Assembly: GCF_000423665.1 (NCBI RefSeq)
Contig: NZ_KE384074.1
Location: 62,001 to 126,000 of the forward strand
Direction: 5' to 3'
Origin: Solirubrobacter soli DSM 22325
GTDB taxonomy: Bacteria; Actinomycetota; Thermoleophilia; Solirubrobacterales; Solirubrobacteraceae
Length of the DNA: 64,000 nucleotides
Positions 24,843 to 36,781 of this stretch are shown here, one piece after another (position 1 is the first letter of the stretch; each line of letters starts with the position of its first letter). Made by a program: the position numbers and the translations under genes. The notes under the pieces were generated by a model. It saw only the letters and a program-made list of their open reading frames with translations, was not told the origin of the DNA and ran no database searches.

Positions 24843-25499
24843 TCAAGCCGAGGTGAGCAGCTTCGCGATCTCGCTGTTGCGATCGTCCGAGATCCCGTTG
24901 CGCCTGCTCTCGGCGGCCGCGCCCTTGAAGTCCTTCTTCTTGATCAGGCCGACGAACGTGGGGAACTTCGTCATCAAGCCGTGCAGCCCGAGGTTGAAGG
25001 CCATGTCGATCAGCGCGCCCTGGACGTTCTCCGGATAGCTCGCGTAGTCCGGGAACTTCGATTGCAGGCCGGTGACGACGTTGGTCAGGTCGTCGGTGAG
25101 CAGCGCGTCGATCGTGGCGGCCGTCACGTGCAGCGTCGTCGAGGCCTTGTAGACGCTGGCCACCTTGCCGGCCTCCTTGGCCTTGATCGCCGCGAACTCG
25201 TCCGCGATCTCCTGCTGGCTCGCGGCGGCCGAGTCCGCGTTGCGCACGAACGCGATCTTCTGCGCCGCCGCCGCGTCGGGCAGCATCCGGCCGACGCCGA
25301 CCGTGACCTTGCCGACGGTGTCCAGGTACATGTGCGTGATCGCGCCCTCGAAGCGCTTCGTGCGCTCCAGCGTTCCCGCCGGGAGCGTCACGCTGCGGGC
25401 GTAGGACATGCGGGTGAACGGGCGGTTCATCAGCGCGGTGGCCTTCAGCCCGCGCTTGCCCTCAAGCGCCTTCTCGAGTTCCAGCAGACGGTTGGCCAT
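24843..25499 (-). CDS. T4-type lysozyme (GH24-like) with N-terminal NRLLELE tag
   Basis: 218 residues, last gene of the eleven-gene operon, eight bases after the amidase gene. RFEGAITHMYLDTVGKVTVG matches the catalytic face of T4 lysozyme: Glu51, Asp60 and Thr66 have the same spacing (9 and 6) as Glu11/Asp20/Thr26. Such enzymes cut the MurNAc-GlcNAc bond in peptidoglycan. There is no signal peptide and no nearby holin. The first 14 residues (MANRLLELEKALEG) match the N-termini of the amidase and the DUF4056 protein of the same operon. The ATG at 25499 is chosen because a longer frame would run into the amidase gene. Confidence 0.8.
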   Translation of the reverse strand: MANRLLELEKALEGKRGLKATALMNRPFTRMSYARSVTLPAGTLERTKRFEGAITHMYLDTVGKVTVGVGRMLPDAAAAQKIAFVRNADSAAASQQEIADEFAAIKAKEAGKVASVYKASTTLHVTAATIDALLTDDLTNVVTGLQSKFPDYASYPENVQGALIDMAFNLGLHGLMTKFPTFVGLIKKKDFKGAAAESRRNGISDDRNSEIAKLLTSA

Positions 25500-25507
25500 C
25501 TCACTCC

Positions 25508-27619
25508 TCACGCGACGTCGGTGATGTCGAGCAACTGCAGGGATGCGCCGGACTTCGCGTCGTGGTGCGTCTGGCGCCGGTGGCCGCCCGGGTCCTCGGC
25601 GATCTGCTTGGCCATCGCGTACGCGGCGTCCGCCGCCATCGCCTTGTGCAGGCGCAGGTAGCAGTAGAGCGTCTCGAAGGCGCCATCCTCGTGGTCGCGC
25701 AGCGCCGAGTGCGACGCGATCCAGGGGTCGCCGGCGACGTTGTCGAAGTACAGGTGCCCGCCGGTGCTCATCACGAAGAACGTGCGGTCCTTGAACTCGG
25801 CCGCGGCCTTCGCCGGGTCCGGGTGCGGGATCACCTGCAGCCAGTTGTCCGCGATGCCGAGCTCGCTCCGCAAGCCGGAGACGGTCTGGGCGAGGGCCTC
25901 CAACTGCACGAGGGGCGGAACGACGTAGTGGCTGCCGAGCTTGCCGCCCCATGCGACGGGGATCCGCTCACCGGGGCTCGCCTCGCCCGCGTTCGGCTGG
26001 TTGTCCGTGTCGAACACGAGGTTGACGACCTCGATGCCGACGCTGTGCTCCGAGAAGCTGCGGATGTGGTGGAGCATGTCGACGGCGTCGTTGTGCTGCA
26101 CGAGCGTGCCGTCGCGATCGAGATGGAACTGCACGCCGAGCGCAGGGTCGCGCACGCCCTGCCAGGTCGGCGAGACCGTCTCGTGGATCACGATCTGCCG
26201 CACCTCGGACTTCGCCCGCGTGCGCTGCTGGGGCTTGCCGACGAACTGGCTGACGCCGGCCGCGGACCAGTTCTTCAGCGTCACGCCACCCGGCGCGGGC
26301 CGCTCCACGCCGTCGATCACGAGCGTCTCCGCGGCCGCGGGCGTGAAGCTGCGCCAGGTCGGCGCCGACATCGCCTGCACCTGCGGCATCAGCGCGAAGT
26401 CCTCCACGACGTCCAGGTTCGCGAGCGCGGGCGGGGCGGGAGCCGGTTGCGGGACCGGCGCCGGGCGCACGGCGCGGTCCATCGCCCGCTCGATCGCGTC
26501 GAACGCCGCCTGGACCGGCACCTCGCCGAGGTCGAAGGTCCGCGGCGGCGCGAGCGCGTCGCCGATCTGGTCGAAGACGCCGTAGCGGCTCGCCTCGACG
26601 GGCGCCGCCGCGGGGTCCGGGGCCGGCGCGGGCGGCTCGGCCGAGGCCTGGGGGCTCACGGGGTTCATCAGCGCCTGCAGGCGGCGAGCGAACGCATCGT
26701 CGTCCTCGTCGAGCGCGTCGAGCTGCGAGAACGTCGCCTCCTCCGCGGGCGGCGCGAACGGCGATGGGACGCCCGGCGGCATCGGGGGCGCGGGGACGCC
26801 CGGAGGAAGCGGCGGAACCCCGGGCAGCTGGCCCGCCCCGGGCAGCCCGGGCGGGACGGGCACGCCCGGTGGGAACATCCCGTTCTGGCCGCCGGGAAAC
26901 CCGGGCGGGGTCGGGACGCCTGGCGGAAGCGGGATGCCGGGCGGGGTCGGCAAGCCCGGCGGGAAGAAGTTCGTGGCGGCGGCGAGCTCGGTCGGGTGGG
27001 CCGCGGTCGCGCCCTGCGCGGGCGCCGTGTGGCCGGCCGGCGAGGTCGCGAGGTGCGGCGCGAGGCCGTCGGCGGGCGCGGTGCCGGACACGCCGGCGCC
27101 GGCCGGCGCGAAGATGCCGGCGGGCGCGAAGATGCCGTCGGGCGCGGCGGCGCCGGCCACCGGCGCGAAGCCAGGCGCGGCGGCGCCGGCTACGGGCGCC
27201 GTGCCGGACACGGCGGACCCGGCCACCGGCGCGAAGCCAGGCGCGGCGGCGCCGGCCACCGGCGCGAAGCCAGGCGCGGCGGCGCCGGCCACGGGCGCCG
27301 TGCCGGACACGGCGGACCCGGCCACCGGCGCGACGCCGGGCGCCGCCGCGCCCGCCGCCGGCGCGGTCAGCGGCGCCGGGGCGCCATGGTGGGGCGGGCA
27401 CTGGTAGTCGTGCCGCAGGTCGATCGGGCGGCCGTCGTCGAACGCGCGCACGGCCGGGGCGACCGAGGTCGCCATGCTCGCCGGCGTGCTCTCGGCGGGC
27501 GGCACGCGGTCGGCGGTGCCGATCCACTCCTCCCCCGGTCGCAGGCAGGGTGGCGCCGCCGCTTCGGTGCCGCGGCGCAGGCGGTTCTCCAGATCCAGGT
27601 AGCGGCTGCGCTCACGCAT
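25508..27619 (-). CDS. N-acetylmuramoyl-L-alanine amidase-like protein with repeat-rich linker and N-terminal tag
   Basis: 703 residues. N-terminal tag RSRYLDLENRLRRG (residues 4-17); a degenerate 10-12-residue Ala/Pro/Gly repeat region at about 83-183; a PPG-rich collagen-like stretch at about 218-288; then a type-2 amidase-like domain at about 465-620 (VRQIVIHETVSPTWQG, FHLDRDGTLVQHNDAVDML, HSVGIEVVNLVFD), with His and Glu residues placed as in zinc amidases that cut the MurNAc-L-Ala bond. No signal peptide. It overlaps the upstream gene by eight bases. The extended linker suggests a surface- or particle-tethered hydrolase. Confidence 0.75.
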   Translation of the reverse strand: MRERSRYLDLENRLRRGTEAAAPPCLRPGEEWIGTADRVPPAESTPASMATSVAPAVRAFDDGRPIDLRHDYQCPPHHGAPAPLTAPAAGAAAPGVAPVAGSAVSGTAPVAGAAAPGFAPVAGAAAPGFAPVAGSAVSGTAPVAGAAAPGFAPVAGAAAPDGIFAPAGIFAPAGAGVSGTAPADGLAPHLATSPAGHTAPAQGATAAHPTELAAATNFFPPGLPTPPGIPLPPGVPTPPGFPGGQNGMFPPGVPVPPGLPGAGQLPGVPPLPPGVPAPPMPPGVPSPFAPPAEEATFSQLDALDEDDDAFARRLQALMNPVSPQASAEPPAPAPDPAAAPVEASRYGVFDQIGDALAPPRTFDLGEVPVQAAFDAIERAMDRAVRPAPVPQPAPAPPALANLDVVEDFALMPQVQAMSAPTWRSFTPAAAETLVIDGVERPAPGGVTLKNWSAAGVSQFVGKPQQRTRAKSEVRQIVIHETVSPTWQGVRDPALGVQFHLDRDGTLVQHNDAVDMLHHIRSFSEHSVGIEVVNLVFDTDNQPNAGEASPGERIPVAWGGKLGSHYVVPPLVQLEALAQTVSGLRSELGIADNWLQVIPHPDPAKAAAEFKDRTFFVMSTGGHLYFDNVAGDPWIASHSALRDHEDGAFETLYCYLRLHKAMAADAAYAMAKQIAEDPGGHRRQTHHDAKSGASLQLLDITDVA
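26755..26965. repeat. PPG-type collagen-like coding repeat
   Basis: Encodes about 70 residues in the amidase-like protein made of (L/V/T)PPG(V/I/L)P units such as PPGIPLPPGVPTPPGFPG. The DNA shows a matching short-period pattern of ccgggcgggg-like units. Confidence 0.75.
27070..27370. repeat. Tandem 10-12-residue Ala/Pro/Gly coding repeats
   Basis: Roughly 33-base units (gccaccggcgcgaagccagg-like on the plus strand) encode repeats of the form APVAGAAAPGF and APVAGSAVSGT. Two unit types alternate in blocks, and near-identical copies (27157-27195 and 27217-27300) show recent duplication. The encoded region should be extended and flexible. Confidence 0.8.
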
Positions 27620-28412
27620 CGAGTCCCTCCGCTTCGTAGTGGTCGGCGCTTCCGAGGCGGAGGCGCATCGTGATCTCGGCGTCGCGGTCGAGCGCCACGG
27701 TCAAGGACTGGTCGTGGAGCTCCGGACCGACGTCGTGCGGAACCGCGACGTAGAGGCGGACGCCATCCGCCGAGGCGCGGACGGGCACGGCGCGCCCGGC
27801 GAGCGTCGCGCGCGGGAACTGCGCGGAGACCTCGGCGACGGGCGCGAGGTTGGAGCCCGAGACCTCGAGCACGCTCAGACCGGGCGTCCCGGCGGGCTCG
27901 AGGCTGAGGCCGTCCACGCGCGGCGCGCCCGGGCCGGTGCGCCGGGCGCGGCGCAGGACGTCCGCGAGCTTGCCGTAGTCCACCTTCTTGCCCGTCAGGC
28001 GCTCGACGTCGAGCTTGCTCTCCCCGACGGTCCGGACGAGGTCGTTCCCCGAGCGAATGCCGAGCTTCTCGAGCTCGCGCCGCTCCTCGTGCGGGATCGC
28101 CATCTCCTCGAGCCCCACGTCGTCGTGCTCGACGGGGCGCCGGGCGATCTCCCGGATCTGCGTGTCGCGGATCGAGCCGAGCTGCACCTTGACGGTGGAG
28201 GCCCCGGCCTCGTCGGGCTTGGCCGTGACGAACTTCACGACCTCCCCGTCGTAGACCGGGAAGACCTGCAGCGAGAGCTCGAGGTCCTGCACCGTGTAGG
28301 TCATCCGGACGTTGTCCTTCTTCACCGACAGCGCGTCCACGGCGCGGTCGAGATCGAGGATCACCGAGTCCAGGAACGTCTCCAGCACCCAGGGCTTGTT
28401 CTCATCGGCCAT
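27612..28412 (-). CDS. Unrecognised operon protein with beta N-domain and IPT/TIG-like C-domain
   Basis: 266 residues. Residues about 8-85: a helix (LDSVILDLDRAVDAL) and beta strands (VRMTYTVQDLELSLQVFPVY; STVKVQLGSI). Residues about 105-165: a helical segment resembling a helix-hairpin-helix (LEKLGIRSGNDLVRTVGE). Residues about 170-260: a beta domain whose LSVLEVSGSNLAPVAEVSAQ and DGVRLYVAVP pattern looks IPT/TIG-like. No signal peptide. The first domain resembles the 90-residue product of the preceding gene in strand order. Overlaps its neighbours by 11 and 8 bases. Family and function unknown. Confidence 0.65.
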   Translation of the reverse strand: MADENKPWVLETFLDSVILDLDRAVDALSVKKDNVRMTYTVQDLELSLQVFPVYDGEVVKFVTAKPDEAGASTVKVQLGSIRDTQIREIARRPVEHDDVGLEEMAIPHEERRELEKLGIRSGNDLVRTVGESKLDVERLTGKKVDYGKLADVLRRARRTGPGAPRVDGLSLEPAGTPGLSVLEVSGSNLAPVAEVSAQFPRATLAGRAVPVRASADGVRLYVAVPHDVGPELHDQSLTVALDRDAEITMRLRLGSADHYEAEGLDA

Positions 28413-28674
28413 GGTCGGGGGCGTCCTCGAGCTCGATCCGCAAGGTCAGCCGGTGGAACACCGGCAGGAAAGTGGTCGCGACGCGCTGGGTCGGCGGCGA
28501 CGCCATCAGGCGAGGGAACCCGGTCTCGTCGTGCTCGACGGCGAGCTCCACCGGCAGGTCCAGCCGCAGCGCGCGGACGTACATCTGCCCGTCGAGCTCC
28601 GGGTCCTCGACGCGCGCGGCCTCGCAGAGCTCCGCGACGAGAGCCCCGAGCGGCTGCTTGAGCGAGTCGGTCAT
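28402..28674 (-). CDS. Small unrecognised operon protein (possible trypco2-like)
   Basis: 90 residues: an N-terminal helix (LGALVAELCEAARVEDPELD) followed by beta strands (VRALRLDLPVELAVEHDETG; HRLTLRIELED). This helix-plus-sheet layout recalls the small 'trypsin-co-occurring' domain 2 found beside proteases in bacterial conflict loci, but I cannot confirm homology by eye. A protease is encoded in the same operon. Overlaps the previous gene by 4 bases and the next by 11. Confidence 0.6.
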   Translation of the reverse strand: MTDSLKQPLGALVAELCEAARVEDPELDGQMYVRALRLDLPVELAVEHDETGFPRLMASPPTQRVATTFLPVFHRLTLRIELEDAPDHGR

Positions 28675-28829
28675 CGCGCCCGCTCCGGCTGCGGCTCGTC
28701 GACGTGTTCGAGGTCGACCGGATACAGCGGGACGCGCTCGGAGAACTCGACGCGCATGCCGTTGAGCAGCACCGGCGCCTCCGAGGCGGCGAGCGAGAGT
28801 CCGGCGGGGAATTGGCTCTGGCGGGTCAT
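28671..28829 (-). CDS. 52-residue operon protein
   Basis: Residues begin MTRQSQFPAGLSLAASEAPV and continue LLNGMRVEFSERVPLYPVDL before an acidic tail (EHVDEPQPERAR). No family recognised, no signal peptide, no transmembrane segment. Reality is supported by packing: its ATG lies two bases after the upstream stop, and its stop overlaps the next ATG by four bases (ATGA). Confidence 0.6.
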   Translation of the reverse strand: MTRQSQFPAGLSLAASEAPVLLNGMRVEFSERVPLYPVDLEHVDEPQPERAR

Positions 28830-28831
28830 CG

Positions 28832-30787
28832 CTAGGTCTCCGTGGTCACGCCGACGAACGTGACTGCCGCCGGCACCGGGAACACGACGGTCCGGTCGCT
28901 CGCGCGCGTGACGCGACCGGCGGCGTCGACGTCCTCGCAGTGCTTGAGCGTCACGGAGGCGAGCTTGAGCTCGGGGTACACCCACAGCGCGACGCTCGAG
29001 CCGACACGGCCGCCGAACCGCGCCTCGTAGCGCCCCGCGCTGTCGAAGCGCTTCACGAACGCGGGGTTGCGGAGCGCGTCGAGCTCGGGGTCCCCCAGCG
29101 CGACGAGGCCGTTGCCGAGCCGCGACAGCAGGACGTTGAGCCCGCGCAGGCTGAGACGCATCGAGGACTCGAGCCGCCCGCTCTGCGTGTGCAGCTCCTT
29201 CGGATCGTCCTGGATGCGGGTCACGCCGCGAGCGGCCTCGTCGGCCGTGGGGTCGAGCGCGTAGTAGTACTTGCACTCGTACTGGTAGCGGAACGTCTCG
29301 TCGCTCAGCGTGCCCTGCCACACCTTGTGCCAGTACTCGCGGTGGGCGTCGACGTCGTTGAGCGCGAAGGTGCGCCCCTCATCCGTCCCCGTGACGCCGT
29401 CGAACGCGTACTCGCCCACCGGCGTGAACGGCAGCATCGCGTTCAGGCCGAGCGTCCGGCCGGAGCCGGTGTCGAAGAGCAGGTAGACGCACAGCACGTG
29501 CTCCTCCCCGGGTGTCAACGTCGCCAGCTCGGCCGCGGTGAGCACCACGGGGACGGTCAGCGGCCCCGATGCGGCGACCGAGTCGAGCGTGCGCTGCTCG
29601 TCGATCAGCACGTCGGCGCTGGTCGCCCGTTTGACCTGCCAGCGCAGCCGCGGCCGCGGGATCGCCCGCGGGGTCTGGACGACGAGCCCGAAGCTGCAGG
29701 CGCGGTCGTTGCGGTACAGCCGCCGCGGCCGGCCGCCCAGCGCCAACCCGGCCTGCAGCGTGTCGGCGTCGAACGCCAGCGCGGCGCCGGGCGCGGGCTT
29801 GAATGCCGGCATGACCGCGCTGAGCGAGTGGACGGACTCCTGCGTCGCCAGCAACGCCAGCAGCTGGTAGATCTGCGAGGTGTCCGAGGACGGAAGGATC
29901 CGCTCCAGGTGCTGGCGGACAGCCTCGTTGGCGGCATTGGCCTGGCCCGTCGGCGTGATCTGACCGATCGCCTTCAGCGTGTCGGGATTCAGCGCCTTCT
30001 CGACGAGCGGGATCAGCGCCGGGAGCGCGGCGATCAGGGCGGGCGCGATGGCCGCCTGGGCGTACTGTCCGTCCCCGCCCCACGAGAGCGACTTCGAAGC
30101 GGCCGCGGGCGGCGTCTTGTTGAACACGCCGATCAGCTGCTCGACCGTGCTGATCAGCTTCTGGAGCGACGCCGCGTCCACCCCACCGCCGGCCGGCGGG
30201 GCTGCACCGCCGGGCGGTGCCGTCGCGCCGGGCGCCGCCGGTGCGCCACCGCCGCCGGTGACGGCGCCCAGCAGGTTGCCGACCATCGGCGCGAGCTGGC
30301 CGATGATCGGCAGCGCGTTCTTGAGCATCGGGAGGATCGACTCCCAGAACATCGGCTCGGAGAAGTGCCGCTCTTCGAGCGCGAAGGACGCGACGGGCGG
30401 TCGCGGAACGGTCAGGGTCGCAGTCATCGCGGGGACTCCCTCGTGACGCCGGGGTCGCACGCCGGCCGCGGAGCCGGCGTGGACCAGTGCGGAGACCGCG
30501 GGGCCGACATCCGGCGCCGCGCGGTAGCTGATGAGCTGGATGTAGGCGTTGTCGCGGTCGAAGCGGTCGGACGGCACGTCGAGCGTGGTCCGGCCGAGCC
30601 GCTCGGGCGCGAGCGGACCGGTGAGCGGCGCGACGTAGGACGGGTCCGCCAGCAGCTCGAAACCGTCTTCGTCGACCAGCTCGCCCGGCCCGATGCGGTA
30701 GCTGAAGTAGCGGCTGGAGCCGATGTCGGCACGGAAGCGCACGACGCCGGGCCGCGACTCCGCGCGCTGGAGGAATGCGAGTGCCAC
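28832..30787 (-). CDS. Large unrecognised operon protein, probable structural component
   Basis: 651 residues from a GTG. Residues about 10-105 look like a beta sandwich (VVRFRADIGSSRYFSYRIGP; AYIQLISYRAAPDVG). An amphipathic helical segment follows (FWESILPMLKNALPIIGQLA), then a Gly/Ala/Pro linker, another hydrophobic helical stretch (AIAPALIAALPALIPLVEKA), and from about 355 a beta-rich region (LYRNDRACSFGLVVQTPRAI; VLCVYLLFDTGSG) with a 'WHKVWQGTLSDETFRYQYEC' block. No signal peptide, no enzyme motif. The mix of hydrophobic helices and beta domains could mean a membrane-interacting or oligomeric structural protein (inference). Confidence 0.6.
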   Translation of the reverse strand: MALAFLQRAESRPGVVRFRADIGSSRYFSYRIGPGELVDEDGFELLADPSYVAPLTGPLAPERLGRTTLDVPSDRFDRDNAYIQLISYRAAPDVGPAVSALVHAGSAAGVRPRRHEGVPAMTATLTVPRPPVASFALEERHFSEPMFWESILPMLKNALPIIGQLAPMVGNLLGAVTGGGGAPAAPGATAPPGGAAPPAGGGVDAASLQKLISTVEQLIGVFNKTPPAAASKSLSWGGDGQYAQAAIAPALIAALPALIPLVEKALNPDTLKAIGQITPTGQANAANEAVRQHLERILPSSDTSQIYQLLALLATQESVHSLSAVMPAFKPAPGAALAFDADTLQAGLALGGRPRRLYRNDRACSFGLVVQTPRAIPRPRLRWQVKRATSADVLIDEQRTLDSVAASGPLTVPVVLTAAELATLTPGEEHVLCVYLLFDTGSGRTLGLNAMLPFTPVGEYAFDGVTGTDEGRTFALNDVDAHREYWHKVWQGTLSDETFRYQYECKYYYALDPTADEAARGVTRIQDDPKELHTQSGRLESSMRLSLRGLNVLLSRLGNGLVALGDPELDALRNPAFVKRFDSAGRYEARFGGRVGSSVALWVYPELKLASVTLKHCEDVDAAGRVTRASDRTVVFPVPAAVTFVGVTTET

Positions 30788-30814
30788 GGCTGGCCGCCCA
30801 TCGCCTCTACCGCA

Positions 30815-31915
30815 TCAGGCGCGGGCGCCGTTGGGCGCGCCGATCGCGGGCTGGGCGGGCGGGGCACCGGGCGCCAGGGCGCCGGCCGCGGGCGGCGCCG
30901 CGATCTGCTTGTACATCTCGGCGAACTGGTCCATCTTGAAGAAGTCCGACTCGATCTCCAGTGACACCGAACCGGTGATCTTGGCGGTCAGGTCCGTGCT
31001 CGTCTTGCCCGACGCCGAGGACACCGAGATCTGCGTGTTGCGCCCGGTCGAGGAGTGCCCGCCCCCGAAGGAGAACGGGCCCAGGTTCACGCCGCCGCCG
31101 AGGTTGCCGCCGCTCGTGTTGACCTTCTCGCTCTGGTTGGCCGCCTGCCGCGCCGAGCTCTCCTTGGCCTTGATGTCGAACACGCAGGCGGCTTCGATCT
31201 TGCCCTTGCGGATGATCATCCGCGTGACGCCCATCAGCAGGACCTCGCGCAGCAGCGCGCGGCTCTCCTGGGCCATCGCCACCTTGGTGTCGAGGATCTT
31301 CGCCCGGATCGCGTTGTTGGAGAGGTCGACCGCGTTGCCCTGGCGGTCGAGCAGGGTCGGCGTCTGGTTCTGCTTGGGCGGCGCGCCGTCCTCGTCCTCG
31401 TCGGCGAGCGGGGGCGGCAGCGCGATCTGAAAGCTGTCGGGCTCGTCCTCGGCCAGCTTCGCGTAGGCGTCGAAGTCGTTGACCTCGTTGACGAACTTGG
31501 ACAGCGACCCGGTCGCGGCCTTGAGCAGCCGGATGAAGTCGTCCGTCTGCGCGTGCTGAACCTCGAGGTTGCCCTGGAAGACCGCGTGGGTGAGGTCGCG
31601 GACGAAGCCCGGGAAGTCGATCGAGTCGATGAACTCGCCCGCGAGCTTGCCCGCCTGCTCGATCCGCCGGTTCTCGAAGTTGGCCGGGTCGGTCGCGTCC
31701 TTCGGGTTGTACGCCGTCTGGTGCGCCAGCGGCGCACCGTTCGGCGCGGCCCGGCGCTCGAGCCGCTGGTAGTTGGCCTCGTACACGTCGCGGTACAGCG
31801 ACTGCTGCTCCGCGTACGGCATCGACAGGAACGCCGCGCTCTCGCCCAGCACCGATCGGGTCTGGCGGCGCGCGCGCTCCTTGAGGTCGGCCTGGATCGT
31901 CGCCGGCAGGGTCAT
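30815..31915 (-). CDS. Unrecognised operon protein, possibly DUF2589-like in its C-terminal part
   Basis: 366 residues from the ATG at 31915, which overlaps the previous stop (ATGA); a GTG nine bases upstream is less likely. N-terminal half helical (KERARRQTRSVLGESAAFLS; FIDSIDFPGFVRDLTHAVFQ). From about residue 200: VAMAQESRALLREVLLMGV, IEAACVFDIKAKESS, a Gly/Ser-rich stretch (GGGVNLGPFSFGGGHSSTG) and a final strand SVSLEIESDFFKMDQFAEMY, then an Ala/Pro tail. That order (beta strand, Gly/Ser loop, beta strand, short helix) recalls DUF2589 proteins, a weak visual match only. No signal peptide. Confidence 0.6.
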   Translation of the reverse strand: MTLPATIQADLKERARRQTRSVLGESAAFLSMPYAEQQSLYRDVYEANYQRLERRAAPNGAPLAHQTAYNPKDATDPANFENRRIEQAGKLAGEFIDSIDFPGFVRDLTHAVFQGNLEVQHAQTDDFIRLLKAATGSLSKFVNEVNDFDAYAKLAEDEPDSFQIALPPPLADEDEDGAPPKQNQTPTLLDRQGNAVDLSNNAIRAKILDTKVAMAQESRALLREVLLMGVTRMIIRKGKIEAACVFDIKAKESSARQAANQSEKVNTSGGNLGGGVNLGPFSFGGGHSSTGRNTQISVSSASGKTSTDLTAKITGSVSLEIESDFFKMDQFAEMYKQIAAPPAAGALAPGAPPAQPAIGAPNGARA

Positions 31916-33831
31916 CGATCCCACTCGTCGATCGCGCCGGCCGGGACCTTGCCGTTGACGCCGGAGTCCGGGGCGTCGTCGTCGCGGTGACGCCGGCGTC
32001 GGCGGCGCCAGCGGTCACGGTCGTGGTCGGAGGGCTGCCACGCGGTGTCGTCGACCGCGGCGCGGGCGATGATCGTCTGCTGGGCCGCGTCGAGGAAGTC
32101 CTGGAACGGCTCCTCGCGCAGGTTCCCGCGGGTGAAGCCCCCGATGAAGTTGAAGACGTCGTTGCCGCGCTCGGCGAGCTCGACGAGGTCCTCGACCGGG
32201 AGGCTGGCGTCCAGGAACGTCATCCCCATGTTCTTGATCGCCGAGGTCACCGACTGCTCGGTGCCGCCGTAACGGGAGACGATCGGCTCGCTCGTGATCA
32301 GCTCCTGGCACTCGTTGAGGTAGCTGATCAGCTCCTCGATCTTCAGGAACGCGGAGCCCGTGACGAACTGGCTGAGGTTGTGCTGGACCGAGGTGAGTGC
32401 GGACACGACGCCGGCGCGCGAGATCTGCCGCGGGTCGTTGAACGCGCGGTCCTGGAGGTCGACGAGCCGCGTGACCTCGTACATCAGGCGGTCGAAGTGC
32501 TCGCCGAAGCGCTCGTTGACGAGCGCGCCGGACAGCATCTCGGCCTCGCCGTAGTTGAACAGCCGGCGGTAGAGCATCCCGCGCTCGGAGTCGTCGGGAC
32601 GGTCGTTGCGCAGATGCTCGATGCGGTTAAGCAGCGAGGCGACGTCGCCCTCGGACACGTCGAGCCCACCGCGGTGCCATTCGAGGCTGAGCGCGTCGGC
32701 GATGTCGAACATGCGCATGAGCTCGCCCTCGACGAAGATCGTGAACAGCGCGCCGGCGGCGTAGATCGCCTTCGGCCGCACGACCGTCGTCTTGTCGAGC
32801 TGGCTGATCCGGCGGATGGTGAAGTCCGACTGGACGCCCTTGCGGCGTCCGCTGCGGGCGATGTCGATCGGGTCGTCGCTGTCGGCCCGCTGGCGGCGCG
32901 CGGCGTCGTAGGCGAGCGCGAAGTACTCGTCGAACTCGCCGGCGACGACGCGCTCGTACGTCATCGAGAGCTCGAGCTCGACCAGGTAGTCGATCATCCC
33001 CTGGCGGATCCGCTCGTCGGCGGCCTCGGGCTTGATCTCGTTCTTGGCGAGATAGACGTCGACCAACCGCGGGACGCTGCCCTGGCGGCGGCGGACGTCG
33101 ACCAGCGCGAGCACCGCCGCGGTCAGCTTGCCGATCCGCAGGTCGATGCCGCGGGTGAGTGCCAGGCGCGCGAGGTCGTCCCGCTCGGCTGGCTCGAGCA
33201 CGATCAGCTGTGCGGCGAGGACCGCGTCGATCGCGCGGCGCAGGAACTTCAGGAGCGCCTCGTCGTCGAGGTGCGTGAGGATCCAGTCGACGATGCCGGC
33301 GTCGTCGGACTTCTCCACCTGGCCTTCGTCGAGCGCCTGCAGGAAGAGCCACTCGTAGATCGCGGGCTGGGCGAGCGCGAGCCGGCGCGCGTCCTCGAGG
33401 TCGAGCGAGTCCAGCCGGCCCGTCACCTTCTCGACGGTCCCGGTGATCCCACGCTTCGACAGGCGGATGCCTGGATACGCGGCGAGCTTCGCGTCGAACT
33501 CGATCCGCGTCTCCTTGACCGCGTTGAGCGCGATCGGGTCCATGCCGCTGGGCGCGCGGATCTGCAACAGCGGCGTGAGCGCGCCGTCCGCCGCCGCCTC
33601 GACGCCCTCCTGCACGACCGCGGCCGAGACGCCCGCGGCCGCCGCCAGCGTCTGCACCTCGGGCGCGGTCAGCGTCGGCGGGATCTCCTTGCGTTCGAGC
33701 AGATCGAGCAGGACCGGCCGCTGCTCGGCCGCCGGAAGCCCGCCGATGAAATTCAGCAGCACCGGCTTGCGCTGGGCGAGATCCAGATGGCGGATCGCCC
33801 GCGCGTCGATGATGAGGTCGTTCAGGGCCAT
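31912..33831 (-). CDS. Large mostly helical operon protein, family unknown
   Basis: 639 residues from the ATG at 33831. Nearly all predicted helix: LIIDARAIRHLDLAQRKPVL, TAPEVQTLAAAAGVSAAVVQ, LTHLDDEALLKFLRRAIDAV, MIDYLVELELSMTYERVVAG, FGEHFDRLMYEVTRLVDLQD. It ends in a strongly basic, then acidic, tail (RDRWRRRRRRHRDDDAPDS). No signal peptide, P-loop or catalytic motif noticed. Its size and central place suggest a scaffold or adaptor. Two bases after the coiled-coil gene, four-base overlap with the next. Confidence 0.6.
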   Translation of the reverse strand: MALNDLIIDARAIRHLDLAQRKPVLLNFIGGLPAAEQRPVLLDLLERKEIPPTLTAPEVQTLAAAAGVSAAVVQEGVEAAADGALTPLLQIRAPSGMDPIALNAVKETRIEFDAKLAAYPGIRLSKRGITGTVEKVTGRLDSLDLEDARRLALAQPAIYEWLFLQALDEGQVEKSDDAGIVDWILTHLDDEALLKFLRRAIDAVLAAQLIVLEPAERDDLARLALTRGIDLRIGKLTAAVLALVDVRRRQGSVPRLVDVYLAKNEIKPEAADERIRQGMIDYLVELELSMTYERVVAGEFDEYFALAYDAARRQRADSDDPIDIARSGRRKGVQSDFTIRRISQLDKTTVVRPKAIYAAGALFTIFVEGELMRMFDIADALSLEWHRGGLDVSEGDVASLLNRIEHLRNDRPDDSERGMLYRRLFNYGEAEMLSGALVNERFGEHFDRLMYEVTRLVDLQDRAFNDPRQISRAGVVSALTSVQHNLSQFVTGSAFLKIEELISYLNECQELITSEPIVSRYGGTEQSVTSAIKNMGMTFLDASLPVEDLVELAERGNDVFNFIGGFTRGNLREEPFQDFLDAAQQTIIARAAVDDTAWQPSDHDRDRWRRRRRRHRDDDAPDSGVNGKVPAGAIDEWDR

Positions 33832-33833
33832 CG

Positions 33834-34574
33834 TCAGCTCCCTACGGCGCCCGCGCCCGCGCGCCGTTCGAGGTACAGGGCGAGTTCTTGCGGGTTGAGC
33901 TCGGCGACGAGCTTGATCCGGAACGCCGGGTCGGTTTGGTCGAGGACGGCCTGGACCTTGTCCTCGAGCGCTTCCTCGGTCTCGAGGTCGTCGACATGCT
34001 GCTCGCTGGCGGCGAGCTCCTGCTGGAGCGCCACGATCGCGCTCGCCTTCGCGGCGTTCTGCTCGGTCAGCGTCGCGATCTCGGCGGCCTTGGCCGCGTT
34101 CTGCTGTGTGAGCGCCGCGATCTCGATCGCCTGGGCGCCGATCGTCTGGTTCGCGTCTTCGAGCGCGGCGGACTTGGCGGCCAGTGCCGCCTCGGCCGCG
34201 TTCAGCGCGGCGGTCTTGGCGGCCAGTGCCGCCTCGGCCGCGTCGAGCGCGGCGGACTTGGCGGCGAGTGCGGTCTCCGCCGCATCCAGCGCCGCGGTCT
34301 TCTCGGCGAGCTGGGCCTCGGCCGCGGCGAGCGCCGCCGTCGCGTCGGCGAGCTGTGCCTCGAGCTCGGCGATCTGCCGGTTGGCCGCCGCCAGCGCTTG
34401 CGCCTGCTCGTCGATCGTGCACTTCTGCACGGCGTTGATCTTCTTGAGGTCCGCGAGCTGCTTCTTCAGCCGCCGGATCTCCGCCTTCAGGCGTTCGACC
34501 GTGCCCCCGTGCTCGTTGCCCCCGGAGGTGTCCAACGTCCGATCCGCGTCGTTCGCGGAGGCTGGACTGCTCAT
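33834..34574 (-). CDS. Alanine-rich coiled-coil protein
   Basis: 246 residues. A polar N-terminus is followed by a long coiled coil at residues about 25-200: RLKAEIRRLKKQLADLKKI, then 14-residue tandem repeats of the type KSAALDAAEAALAA (residues about 92-140), then TQQNAAKAAEIATLTEQNAA. The C-terminal ~45 residues (DQTDPAFRIKLVAELNPQEL) form a small separate domain. Likely an elongated dimer acting as rod or spacer. No signal peptide. The start at 34574 overlaps the protease stop by four bases. Confidence 0.75.
   Translation of the reverse strand: MSSPASANDADRTLDTSGGNEHGGTVERLKAEIRRLKKQLADLKKINAVQKCTIDEQAQALAAANRQIAELEAQLADATAALAAAEAQLAEKTAALDAAETALAAKSAALDAAEAALAAKTAALNAAEAALAAKSAALEDANQTIGAQAIEIAALTQQNAAKAAEIATLTEQNAAKASAIVALQQELAASEQHVDDLETEEALEDKVQAVLDQTDPAFRIKLVAELNPQELALYLERRAGAGAVGS
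34155..34301. repeat. 42-base tandem repeat encoding two-heptad units
   Basis: About three and a half copies of a 42-base unit encode K(S/T)AAL(D/N)AAE(T/A)ALAA in the coiled-coil gene. Copies are nearly identical at DNA level, so the rod may change length by unequal exchange. Confidence 0.75.
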
Positions 34575-35893
34575 GCGGTTGTCCTTTCGGGTGTGAGGTC
34601 GGTCTGGGCGGACATCAGGTCCAGAAGCCGCAGGGCGTCGGCGACGTTCACGCGCCCGTGGCCGCCGCGCACGGTGCGGAAGGCGGCGTCCGTGCGATCG
34701 GCGGTGGCGACCAACAGGCGCCGGAGGTCGCCCACGCCGAGACGCCGGCGACCGTGCTCGAGCGCGGCGGACTGCAGAAGAGCGGCGGCGCCGGTCACGA
34801 ACGGCGCGGCCTGCGAGGTCCCGCTCGCGAACGCGTAGCCGGCGTCCGGGAAGCTGCTGTAGATGTCCGTTCCGGGCGCGGTCAGCAGCACCTGCGGGCC
34901 GTACGTCGAGAACGCCGCGACCGCGTCCTGGGGATCGGACGCGCCGACGGCGATCACGCCCGGGAGCGAGCCGGGGTAGTACAGCTTCTCGTGGCCGTCG
35001 TTGCCCGCCGCGGCGACCATCACGACGCCGCGGCGCAGGCCGTACTCGACGACCTCCGCGTGGGGCAGCCCGCTGCCGGTGCGCGGCAGGCCGAAGCTCA
35101 TGTTGATGACGTGGGCGCCCTGGTCGATCGCCCACTTGAGCCCGGTGTTGATGTTGTCCACCAGGCCCGCGCCGACGGGCCGTCCGCCTTGGCGCATCGC
35201 CCCGAGCACCCGCACGGGGAGGAGGCGGCACCCGGGTGCGACGCCCGTCGGCATCCGCTCGCCCGCTCCGGCGATGATCCCGGAGACGTGGGTGCCGTGG
35301 CCGACGGGGTCCTCGGGGTCCGTGTCGGCGTCGAGGAAGTCCCCGAGGAAGGTTCCCGCGCCGTCGAGGATGTCGACGAAGTCGTGGCCGGGCACGACCG
35401 CCTTCGCGAGCTCGGGGTGGCGCACGTCGACGCCCGTGTCCAGCACGGCGACCGTGATCTCGGGCCGCCCCGTTCCCCAGCGGTGCGCGTCCGGGAGGCC
35501 GATGGCCTCGCGCGACCAGCTGTCGGTGCGGACGCTCTGGGCCGCGGCCGGGGCGAGGTCGGTCACGCCCACGCGACCCGCCCGCGCGTACTCGACCTCG
35601 GGCACCAGCGAGATGTCCTCCACGAGCCCGGCCGGGATCGCGCTCTGCTCGCGCAGGATCAGCCGGTAGATCCGGTCGAGCTTGGCGGTGAGCTCGTCAC
35701 TGGTCCAGCGTTCGCCCGCCGGCGCGTACTCGCGCGTGACCCACACCGGGACGCCGTGCCGGCGCAGGACCGCGTCGATCGCCGGGGTCAGAGACGCCTG
35801 AGCGCCGCCCTTGTCGGCGATGCTCTCCTGCCACGAGGCGACGTCCGGCGCCTGGGCTCCGTCGCGCAGCCGGATGATGACGTGCGGCTTCAC
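34571..35893 (-). CDS. Subtilisin-like (S8) serine protease without signal peptide
   Basis: 440 residues from a GTG three bases after the upstream stop. Complete S8 active site: Asp152 (AVLDTGVDVRHPE), His199 (VGHGTHVSGIIAG), oxyanion Asn298 (AAAGNDG) and Ser360 (FASGTSQAAPFVTGAAALL). The first ~125 residues are a distinctive pro-like region (KPHVIIRLRDGAQAPDV; LDRIYRLILREQSAIPAGLV) and there is no signal peptide, so the enzyme is probably made and active in the cytoplasm or within a particle. In this operon it could mature the tagged proteins or structural subunits (inference). Confidence 0.9.
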   Translation of the reverse strand: MKPHVIIRLRDGAQAPDVASWQESIADKGGAQASLTPAIDAVLRRHGVPVWVTREYAPAGERWTSDELTAKLDRIYRLILREQSAIPAGLVEDISLVPEVEYARAGRVGVTDLAPAAAQSVRTDSWSREAIGLPDAHRWGTGRPEITVAVLDTGVDVRHPELAKAVVPGHDFVDILDGAGTFLGDFLDADTDPEDPVGHGTHVSGIIAGAGERMPTGVAPGCRLLPVRVLGAMRQGGRPVGAGLVDNINTGLKWAIDQGAHVINMSFGLPRTGSGLPHAEVVEYGLRRGVVMVAAAGNDGHEKLYYPGSLPGVIAVGASDPQDAVAAFSTYGPQVLLTAPGTDIYSSFPDAGYAFASGTSQAAPFVTGAAALLQSAALEHGRRRLGVGDLRRLLVATADRTDAAFRTVRGGHGRVNVADALRLLDLMSAQTDLTPERTTA

Positions 35894-35896
35894 CGC

Positions 35897-36781
35897 TCAG
35901 GGCCGGTCCTTGCCGGGGTTGGCGGCGACCCACGCGCTGCGGAGCGCGTTCGTCGTCGCCTGCATCGTGGCCAGGGTCACGCCGGCGGTCCCGTTGACGG
36001 GCGAGCGCATCGTGAAGGTGAATGCCGAGAACTGGGGCGCGAACACCAACGGCGAGAGCCACGGCAGGCTCACGAAGGCGTCGTACGGCATGCCCGCCGG
36101 CCATCCGAAGCCGTCGAAGTTGCGACGGAGCAGCTTGAGCCCCGTGATGCCGCCCGAGTACCAGTCGTTCTCGATCTTGGCCAGCACGGCCTTGGTCTCG
36201 GCGAGCGAACGTCCGCCGAGCTCTGTGGTGAGCATGCTGCCGATCTCGGCGTCGAGCGCGGCGTCGAGCGGCCCACCCGCCAGCAGCGCGCGCTTGCCGG
36301 CCTCGATCCCGCAGATGTTGGACACGATGTCCTCGGGCGAGAACGCCGAGTAGTCGGGCCACGTGGCCAGCTCGTGCGCCCAGGACTCGACGTAGGTGAT
36401 GGCCGCGGCCAGTGCGAGCCGCGCGGCGCGATCCGCCGGCGGGGTCGTGATCGTCGCGCGGCCCTCGTAGAGCTCGAGCGTGCTCGCTCCCGACGCGAGC
36501 TCGCGGTCGATGTAGACGACCATGTCGGCCGTGTCGCGCAGGTGCCCGAGGTCGATCAGGCCGGACGTCGACGTGTAGACGAAGCCGTTGACCCCGGACG
36601 CGCCGTAGTGATGTCCCGCGAGTTTGGCCGGATCGACTGCTCCCGCCAGGCCCGGGATGTGCCATTGGCCGAGCGCGCAGCACGGTCGTCGCCCCGGGAG
36701 GGGAGCCGACGTCGCGACCGCGATCGCCGGGAAGTGCGCGCGATGGACCTTACGGTCCAGTTCCAGATAGCGATTGCCCAC
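35897..36781 (-). CDS. DUF4056 family protein with N-terminal NRYLELD tag
   Basis: 294 residues, first gene of the operon. After the head MGNRYLELDRKVHR it has RRPCCALGQWHIPGLAG, GHHYGASGVNGFVYTSTSG and GLIDLGHLRDTADMVVYIDR, the conserved Cys-Cys, His and Asp pattern of DUF4056, a family of unknown function that may bind metal (HLRD and HHYG histidines). No signal peptide. The GTG start has no clear ribosome site. The first 14 residues align with those of the amidase and lysozyme at the far end of the operon. Confidence 0.8.
   Translation of the reverse strand: MGNRYLELDRKVHRAHFPAIAVATSAPLPGRRPCCALGQWHIPGLAGAVDPAKLAGHHYGASGVNGFVYTSTSGLIDLGHLRDTADMVVYIDRELASGASTLELYEGRATITTPPADRAARLALAAAITYVESWAHELATWPDYSAFSPEDIVSNICGIEAGKRALLAGGPLDAALDAEIGSMLTTELGGRSLAETKAVLAKIENDWYSGGITGLKLLRRNFDGFGWPAGMPYDAFVSLPWLSPLVFAPQFSAFTFTMRSPVNGTAGVTLATMQATTNALRSAWVAANPGKDRP

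Follow-up and report, generated by a model that had tools for sequence, protein, structure and literature searches.

An eleven-gene operon in Solirubrobacter soli

The window analyzed here is a 64,000-nucleotide stretch of the Solirubrobacter soli DSM 22325 genome. On its minus strand, from position 36781 to 24843, eleven genes overlap or lie at most 27 bp apart. In order, they encode a DUF4056 protein, an S8 protease, a coiled-coil protein, the proteins 639, 369 and 651, a 52-amino-acid (aa) open reading frame (ORF), the proteins 90 and 266, an amidase and a lysozyme. Three of these products, the DUF4056 protein, the amidase and the lysozyme, begin with a short leucine-rich motif, N-R-[LY]-L-x-L-E-x-x-L (the tag), which is the subject of this analysis. 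The features of the operon are as follows.

35897..36781, minus: DUF4056 (lipocone) protein, 294 aa, GTG start, tagged putative cargo heading the operon; Pfam PF13265, E 7.3e-12
36740..36775, minus: tag of the DUF4056 protein, NRYLELDRKVHR (residues 3-14); 12.3 bits with the cyanobacterial matrix
34571..35893, minus: S8 (subtilisin-like) protease, 440 aa; Pfam E 5.8e-48; same-order homologue in Tolypothrix
33834..34577, minus: coiled-coil protein, ~247 aa, start uncertain; coiled-coil matches only, all below cut-off
31912..33831, minus: core protein 639; Tolypothrix 34.5% over 68%; no family above cut-off
30815..31924, minus: core protein 369; Tolypothrix 35% over 88%; no family
28832..30787, minus: core protein 651; Tolypothrix 41% over 59%; six cyanobacterial loci; no family
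28671..28829, minus: 52-aa ORF with LNGMxIxF element; element also in 10 cyanobacterial loci
28402..28674, minus: core protein 90; small homologues in equal position in cyanobacteria
27612..28412, minus: core protein 266; Tolypothrix 46.7% over 95%
25508..27619, minus: amidase, 703 aa, with tag, low-complexity linker and Amidase_2 domain, tagged putative cargo; Pfam Amidase_2 E 7.8e-8
27572..27607, minus: tag of the amidase, SRYLDLENRLRR (residues 5-16); 11.8 bits with the cyanobacterial matrix
26474..26584, minus: VFDQIG..FDLG..FDAIERAMDR element of the amidase (residues 346-382); common to a cyanobacterial Ntox11 carrier
24843..25499, minus: lysozyme, 218 aa, ATG at 25499, tagged putative cargo; Pfam Phage_lysozyme E 1.1e-10
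25458..25493, minus: tag of the lysozyme, NRLLELEKALEG (residues 3-14); 24.6 bits with the cyanobacterial matrix

Pfam and PHROGs scans covered ten of the eleven proteins (the 52-aa ORF was left out), and only DUF4056 (45.6 bits; cut-off, 23.6), Peptidase_S8, Amidase_2 and Phage_lysozyme were matched above the Pfam cut-off. Proteins 639, 369, 651, 90 and 266 had no family in NCBIfam, PHROGs or PADLOC, and the operon's S8 protease scored 196.5 bits with the type VII mycosin equivalog, below the curated cut-off of 278.75. Inspection by eye revealed no evident signal peptide in the operon proteins.

A conserved tag on operon proteins

The N-termini of the three proteins were correct as quoted in the initial annotation of the window: MANRLLELEKALEG for the lysozyme (tag at residues 3-14), MRERSRYLDLENRLRRG for the amidase (residues 5-16) and MGNRYLELDRKVHR for the DUF4056 protein (GTG start; residues 3-14). 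In each of them, [NS]R[LY]L.L[ED]..[LV] lies within the first 16 residues. The remaining sequences are indeed unrelated, as had been stated, since BLASTP returned only residues 1-10 of the lysozyme against the DUF4056 protein (E 0.41-0.57). Furthermore, the codons of the tag differ among the three genes, and thus the tag is not a copied DNA block.

The tags were scored with a matrix built from 12 cyanobacterial tags of loci L012 to L016, which contains no window sequence. The lysozyme reached 24.6, the amidase 11.8 and the DUF4056 protein 12.3 bits. When residues 2-40 were shuffled, the real score was reached in 0, 3 and 1 of 20,000 shuffles, respectively. Across 800 kb of this genome, none of the 732 remaining genes attained 11.8 bits (the observed score of the weakest window tag) with the tag at residues 1-6 and any start codon allowed; the maximum was 9.8, and the limit to residues 1-6 was adopted after a wider ranking of the first 31 residues. 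The pattern of the initial annotation, which was derived from the window, was likewise absent from the 732 genes and was found near the N-terminus of three cyanobacterial operon proteins, two of them near-identical.

Two details of the earlier description did not hold. The LDLDRAV string of protein 266, suggested to be a variant of the tag, was ruled out: it scored -0.3 bits and is part of a helix (xELDKAQDTLSVK) kept throughout the 266 family. An amphipathic character of the tag found little backing either, because the helical hydrophobic moments of six tags were not clearly above those of shuffles (fractions 0.06-0.44), and a reading as an amphipathic or membrane-binding helix was dropped.

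Using tblastn, we detected 639, 369, 651 and 266 together on Tolypothrix and Microchaete plasmids, with 34.5%, 35%, 41% and 47% identity, respectively, in the matched parts; the S8 protease is in the same order on one examined Tolypothrix/Microchaete plasmid record. Scanning genome contigs with a 651 alignment gave six loci, all cyanobacterial (two in Adonisia, two in Calothrix, one each in Dulcicalothrix and Leptolyngbya PCC 7375), and later searches added operon loci in genomes G857, G1068, G1081 and G1113. The operon is sporadic: 651 was present in 2 of 386 cyanobacterial genomes, the centre genome included, and 266 in 7 of 63 genomes of one cyanobacterial order, with one of these matches remote and one cut by a contig end. 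In the phylum or class of the window, full matches came only from its own genome, accompanied by two weak local matches for 651 (296 genomes), five weak matches for 266 (396 genomes) and one fragment for 639 (399 genomes).

Ten cyanobacterial loci in which a close 266 homologue is followed by further sequence had at least one tagged gene after it (for example, MRNRLLELERKVYTS, MKNRLLTLEHNL and MSNYFSQNRLLALEKELY). At a threshold of at least 13 bits, the tag was found in 28 of the 36 genes after 266 and in none of the 57 genes from the protease to 266. Gene calls were made by a simple script, so that counts may shift by one or two genes, and L017, which is close to L016, entered these two figures only. 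In the four loci outside the matrix training, tagged genes made up 9/12 after 266 and 0/17 before it. The motif is therefore conserved in homologous operons of cyanobacteria, where it stands on other domains. Most tags are N-terminal, others are internal or repeated (two or three copies per protein in G857 and G1113), and one in G1068 occupies the C-terminus (residues 447-458 of 460).

A tag profile matched 19 of 60 genomes of one cyanobacterial order at E ≤ 0.5. All 12 hits at E ≤ 0.05 were inside operons of four genomes, including G1081 and G1113 from outside the training set; the best hit outside operons had an E value of 0.077. With these 12 of 12 hits in operons and 0 of 732 gene starts in S. 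soli, the motif is not as common at random protein starts as in this gene neighbourhood. In the whole S. soli genome, the lysozyme tag was the top match of the profile (E 0.131).

Tagged proteins, further motifs and remote relatives

Fifteen tagged proteins were compared with Pfam. Five matched above cut-off, and all five are of effector type: the lysozyme, the amidase, the DUF4056 protein, a Calothrix HK-06 protein with Ntox11 (E 9.8e-29) and a G857 protein with an EndoU nuclease (E 5e-6; 27.4 bits, cut-off 25.3). The catalytic parts vary among the tagged proteins and the tag is constant. For a tagged protein of 1050 aa, the membrane localisation domain of large toxins was matched below threshold. 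The amidase and the Ntox11 carrier are built alike, with the tag followed by an AFDxxxxIDL element, a linker, a VFDQxG..FDLG element and the catalytic domain. BLASTP supported the VFDQxG..FDLG element (E 1e-5; E 5e-5 with L016), and the AFDxxxxIDL element was recognized by eye and by a 13-residue BLAST piece without significance. The linker of the amidase contains repeated GAAAPGFAPVA-like and PPGVPxPPG-like low-complexity stretches.

DUF4056 was placed in the lipocone superfamily as CapCone-DUF4056 (PMC12419801). In the part of that paper used here, CapCone-1, CapCone-2, TelC and other lipocone families are listed as toxins, the first two among those taken up as toxin tips, and CapCone-DUF4056 is missing from the list. 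DUF4056 was also called a possible type VI secretion system (T6SS) effector in Salmonella in an excerpt of PMC11669294. Judged by their domains, the three putative cargoes of the window may target a cell wall at its glycan strands, its stem peptides and its lipid intermediates. A Pseudoalteromonas plasmid relative of the lysozyme was set aside, since it lies in a type VI secretion locus and not in this operon.

Eight genes after 266 were untagged, and seven of their products are marked by one of two other motifs: four have NWxxLQxxF near the N-terminus and three are a 71-aa protein with LNGMxIxF. The eighth (469 aa, G1113) has only a sub-threshold look-alike of the tag. LNGMxIxF is the core of the 52-aa ORF of the window (28671-28829) and of the 71-aa proteins in L016, L017 and G1068 (L101), and in L008, L013, L014, L015 and G857 (L090) it ends larger proteins that otherwise differ. 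It is also present in L012 and G1113 (L104) and was not found in the short G1081 contig. Its longer form reads LLNGMxIxF..PV.L. Its distribution is suggestive of a second docking module, carried by exchangeable proteins.

One or two copies of NWxxLQxxF are found per protein, on carriers that have S-layer homology domains (G857) or a hydrophobic tail at the C-terminus (L013, by eye), and the motif was also detected close to the C-terminal ends of two proteins encoded upstream of 639 (L016, G857). Within operon loci the pattern was matched 12 times, with no match in the window and a single one among 675 background genes, a count that is partly circular because the pattern was written after most sites had been seen. 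Coiled-coil-like sequence is present among the carriers, which lie at the following positions.

L013, 19701-20588: NWxxLQxxF protein
L014, 19270-20304: NWxxLQxxF protein
L015, 19588-20547: NWxxLQxxF protein
L016, 3538-4599 and 6139-6975: NWxxLQxxF proteins
L017, 6085-6969: NWxxLQxxF protein
L090, 2528-4375 and 17672-19117: NWxxLQxxF proteins
L104, 8697-9200: NWxxLQxxF protein

A more distant relative of the operon was found on a Burkholderia pyrrocinia plasmid (L009, 9428-25168), with four 369-family proteins and an S8 protease; no tag was seen in it by eye. A 1254-aa protein of L009 joins Amidase_2 with C70 and C92 papain-like domains. In genome G1064 (contig C15, ~124823-126716; L106/L107), genes for a 120-aa protein and for a 502-aa protein whose N-terminus is remotely similar to the 266 family adjoin a large gene resembling nonribosomal peptide synthetase genes, and 639, 369 and 651 were not recognized nearby. 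A 639-family fragment (30% over residues 312-596) is present in G356, a genome of the same family as that of the window (L010, 10417-11580), where the rest of the operon is absent. In Tolypothrix, an alpha/beta hydrolase has an N-terminal look-alike of the tag, noted by eye only. No relatives of 266 and 369 were found in viral contigs, and none of 369 in phage records; the other core proteins were left out of these searches.

The 266 family weakly matched TIG (L013 copy, E 0.0027, below cut-off). A sequence search against solved structures gave weak matches only, such as the RNA polymerase alpha C-terminal domain against the middle of 266 (E 0.007).

The operon sits inside a 342-kb contig of a genome with a stated contamination of 8%. 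Its GC content is like that of the surroundings, except for one GC-rich bin in the amidase gene (up to 0.776 at 26000-28000 of the window). For the biotin carboxylase neighbouring the operon, the five best plasmid matches were actinobacterial (48-51%).

A docking-tag model and its alternatives

The sequences establish the tag, its conservation, its near-restriction to the operon and its presence on effector-type proteins. The initial proposal of a cargo-docking or sorting tag was supported by this restriction and by conservation on differing domains; docking itself, together with a receptor among the core proteins, the loading of cargo and its use against other cells, is what we infer. The tag probably addresses proteins to an assembly that is as yet undescribed. 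Specifically, we propose, with a probability of about 0.65, that N-R-[LY]-L-x-L-E-x-x-L is a portable docking tag which would bring effectors to a complex of the operon's core proteins. A core protein would bind the tag, and the effectors would be brought onto a complex which, because signal peptides are not evident by eye in any member, would be made in the cytoplasm. This complex would be built from 639, 369, 651, 90 and 266, plus the S8 protease. The cargo of the window would be an envelope-attacking set comprising the lysozyme, an N-acetylmuramoyl-L-alanine amidase and the DUF4056 lipocone, the last of which may act on lipid or lipid-linked wall substrates. The cyanobacterial cargo would include Ntox11 and EndoU toxin-type proteins, among others.

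A wider proposal, to which we give slightly less than an even chance, is that the operon codes for a so far undescribed particle or surface complex that carries toxins. It would be made of core families without known relatives, use three address motifs, and have moved between cyanobacteria and actinobacteria with its cargo exchanged. Just as tentatively, NRLLxLE would then be carried by toxins, NWxxLQxxF by anchor or coiled-coil proteins, and LNGMxIxF by a second exchangeable effector set.

Several observations weigh against the docking model. Compared with the cyanobacterial tags, those of the amidase and the DUF4056 protein are weaker and miss the 13-bit tally threshold, mainly because Tyr replaces Leu and Ser replaces Asn; at this threshold, the lysozyme is the sole window protein counted. 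When the whole of residues 1-31 was open to the start of the tag, a single unrelated gene (13.3 bits, at residue 20) outscored both of these proteins. Ten of the fifteen scanned tagged proteins had no Pfam family above cut-off, and several look low in complexity and lack an enzyme domain, so the tag is not confined to recognizable toxins. On the Tolypothrix plasmid, the core is retained and no tag hit was obtained (an IS701 transposase gene follows its 266 gene), and G1064 with its remote 266 homologue is also without a hit. The AlphaFold2 models were poor, with a mean predicted local distance difference test (pLDDT) score of 48.8 for 369 and 43.1 for 651, and scattered beta-sandwich matches obtained in a fold search with the 651 model were given no interpretation. 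Finally, 12 of 299 genomes of the window's class had a tag hit at E ≤ 0.14, and the lysozyme (E 0.131) was the weakest: 11 of the 298 other genomes matched equally well or better. None of these 11 hits was clearly at a protein start, since nine had no start codon within 12 residues upstream and two lay 113 and 501 residues into the frame. The lysozyme hit alone is thus not decisive, because 11 other genomes match as well or better; decisive are the three tags in one operon and the conserved use in cyanobacteria.

Unlikely, but ranking with the best of the alternatives, is that the S8 protease of the operon recognizes the tag, or uses it as a leader, and matures or releases the tagged proteins by cleavage. 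The protease gene belongs to the operon both in the window and in almost every complete cyanobacterial locus observed, and most tags are near the N-terminus. However, tags are also internal, present in two or three copies per protein and in one case placed at the very C-terminus, and the Tolypothrix plasmid keeps the protease without a tag hit. Position independence and repetition favor docking over a cleaved leader.

We consider it equally improbable that the tag directs loading into a contractile injection system whose genes lie elsewhere in the genome, with the operon as an accessory cargo-packing set. Such a system could also be the path by which the proposed complex reaches a target. All 10 operon genomes had a sheath match (9 above the curated cut-off), but so did 42 of 60 genomes of one cyanobacterial order, and therefore the association is at base rate as far as tested. 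A gene with a core domain of extracellular contractile injection systems (eCIS), eCIS_core (E 2e-25; L012, 19071-20441), adjoins the Adonisia operon L012 on the opposite strand, and Ntox11 was listed with the Photorhabdus virulence cassette (PVC) pathway in 2012, according to the section of PMC3482391 used. Nevertheless, Pfam and PHROGs revealed no sheath, tube or baseplate gene among the ten window proteins scanned, and this eCIS_core protein and three sheath regions of the window genome were without a tag hit. Moreover, published eCIS leaders have no conserved sequence, as stated in an excerpt of PMC11297309.

It is quite improbable that the tag is what remains of a longer common N-terminal domain that gene fusions distributed, with no docking role of its own. 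The amidase and the Ntox11 carrier do share a second element and have partly related N-terminal halves, but the lysozyme and the DUF4056 protein share nothing past the first ten residues, and the tag is confined to operon genes, some of which encode it more than once. Chance similarity of three N-termini, as short charged leucine-rich helices are often alike, would fit the moderate amidase and DUF4056 scores and the NRLxxLE-like strings inside other class proteins (11/298 genomes, E ≤ 0.14), but is contradicted by the held-out loci and matrix, the genome background, the shuffles and the conservation in operons of another phylum, and can practically be discounted.

With a cargo tag readable in the sequence, effectors of the putative assembly could be found by motif search. 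The docking tag would also be a direct handle for its receptor, and it highlights conserved core proteins without a name in any of the family libraries used. Should docking be confirmed, the known sorting principles for bacterial effectors would be joined by a short motif that is conserved in sequence, can be repeated and does not depend on position. No description of the tag or the operon was recognized in the open-licence literature searched.

Encapsulin and microcompartment cargo peptides are short terminal peptides that send unrelated enzymes to one assembly. Unlike in those systems, no shell-protein Pfam family was found in the window proteins or in L013 representatives, a comparison at the sequence level only, as the models were too poor for fold. 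The tag resembles the broken-hairpin trafficking domain, as far as the portion of PMC12419801 used describes it, in being a short constant element on lysozyme, lipocone and nuclease toxins without signal peptides, for which a role in trafficking is proposed. That domain is a C-terminal beta-hairpin, whereas the tag is a leucine-rich, mostly N-terminal motif of one operon. Similarly, eCIS effector leaders are short N-terminal peptides on unrelated effectors without Sec signals, and a use in loading is described for them in the excerpts of PMC11495950 and PMC11297309. In contrast to those leaders, which reportedly lack a conserved sequence (PMC11297309, in part), the tag is conserved in sequence and its operon is without injection-system parts.

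Known trafficking domains (PAAR, WXG/LXG, RHS) were not detected in Pfam scans of the 15 tagged proteins. In polymorphic toxin systems, as outlined in the section of PMC3482391 used, exchangeable toxin-type domains (Ntox11, EndoU, peptidoglycan enzymes) follow a constant, supposedly trafficking part. Here, the constant part differs in being a 12-residue motif that is N-terminal, internal, repeated or C-terminal, and the core neighbours match no family. In line with polymorphic toxins, Amidase_2, Ntox11 and EndoU domains stand behind tagged N-terminal parts. By analogy, the tagged proteins and their operon would work like polymorphic toxin systems and injection-system leaders.

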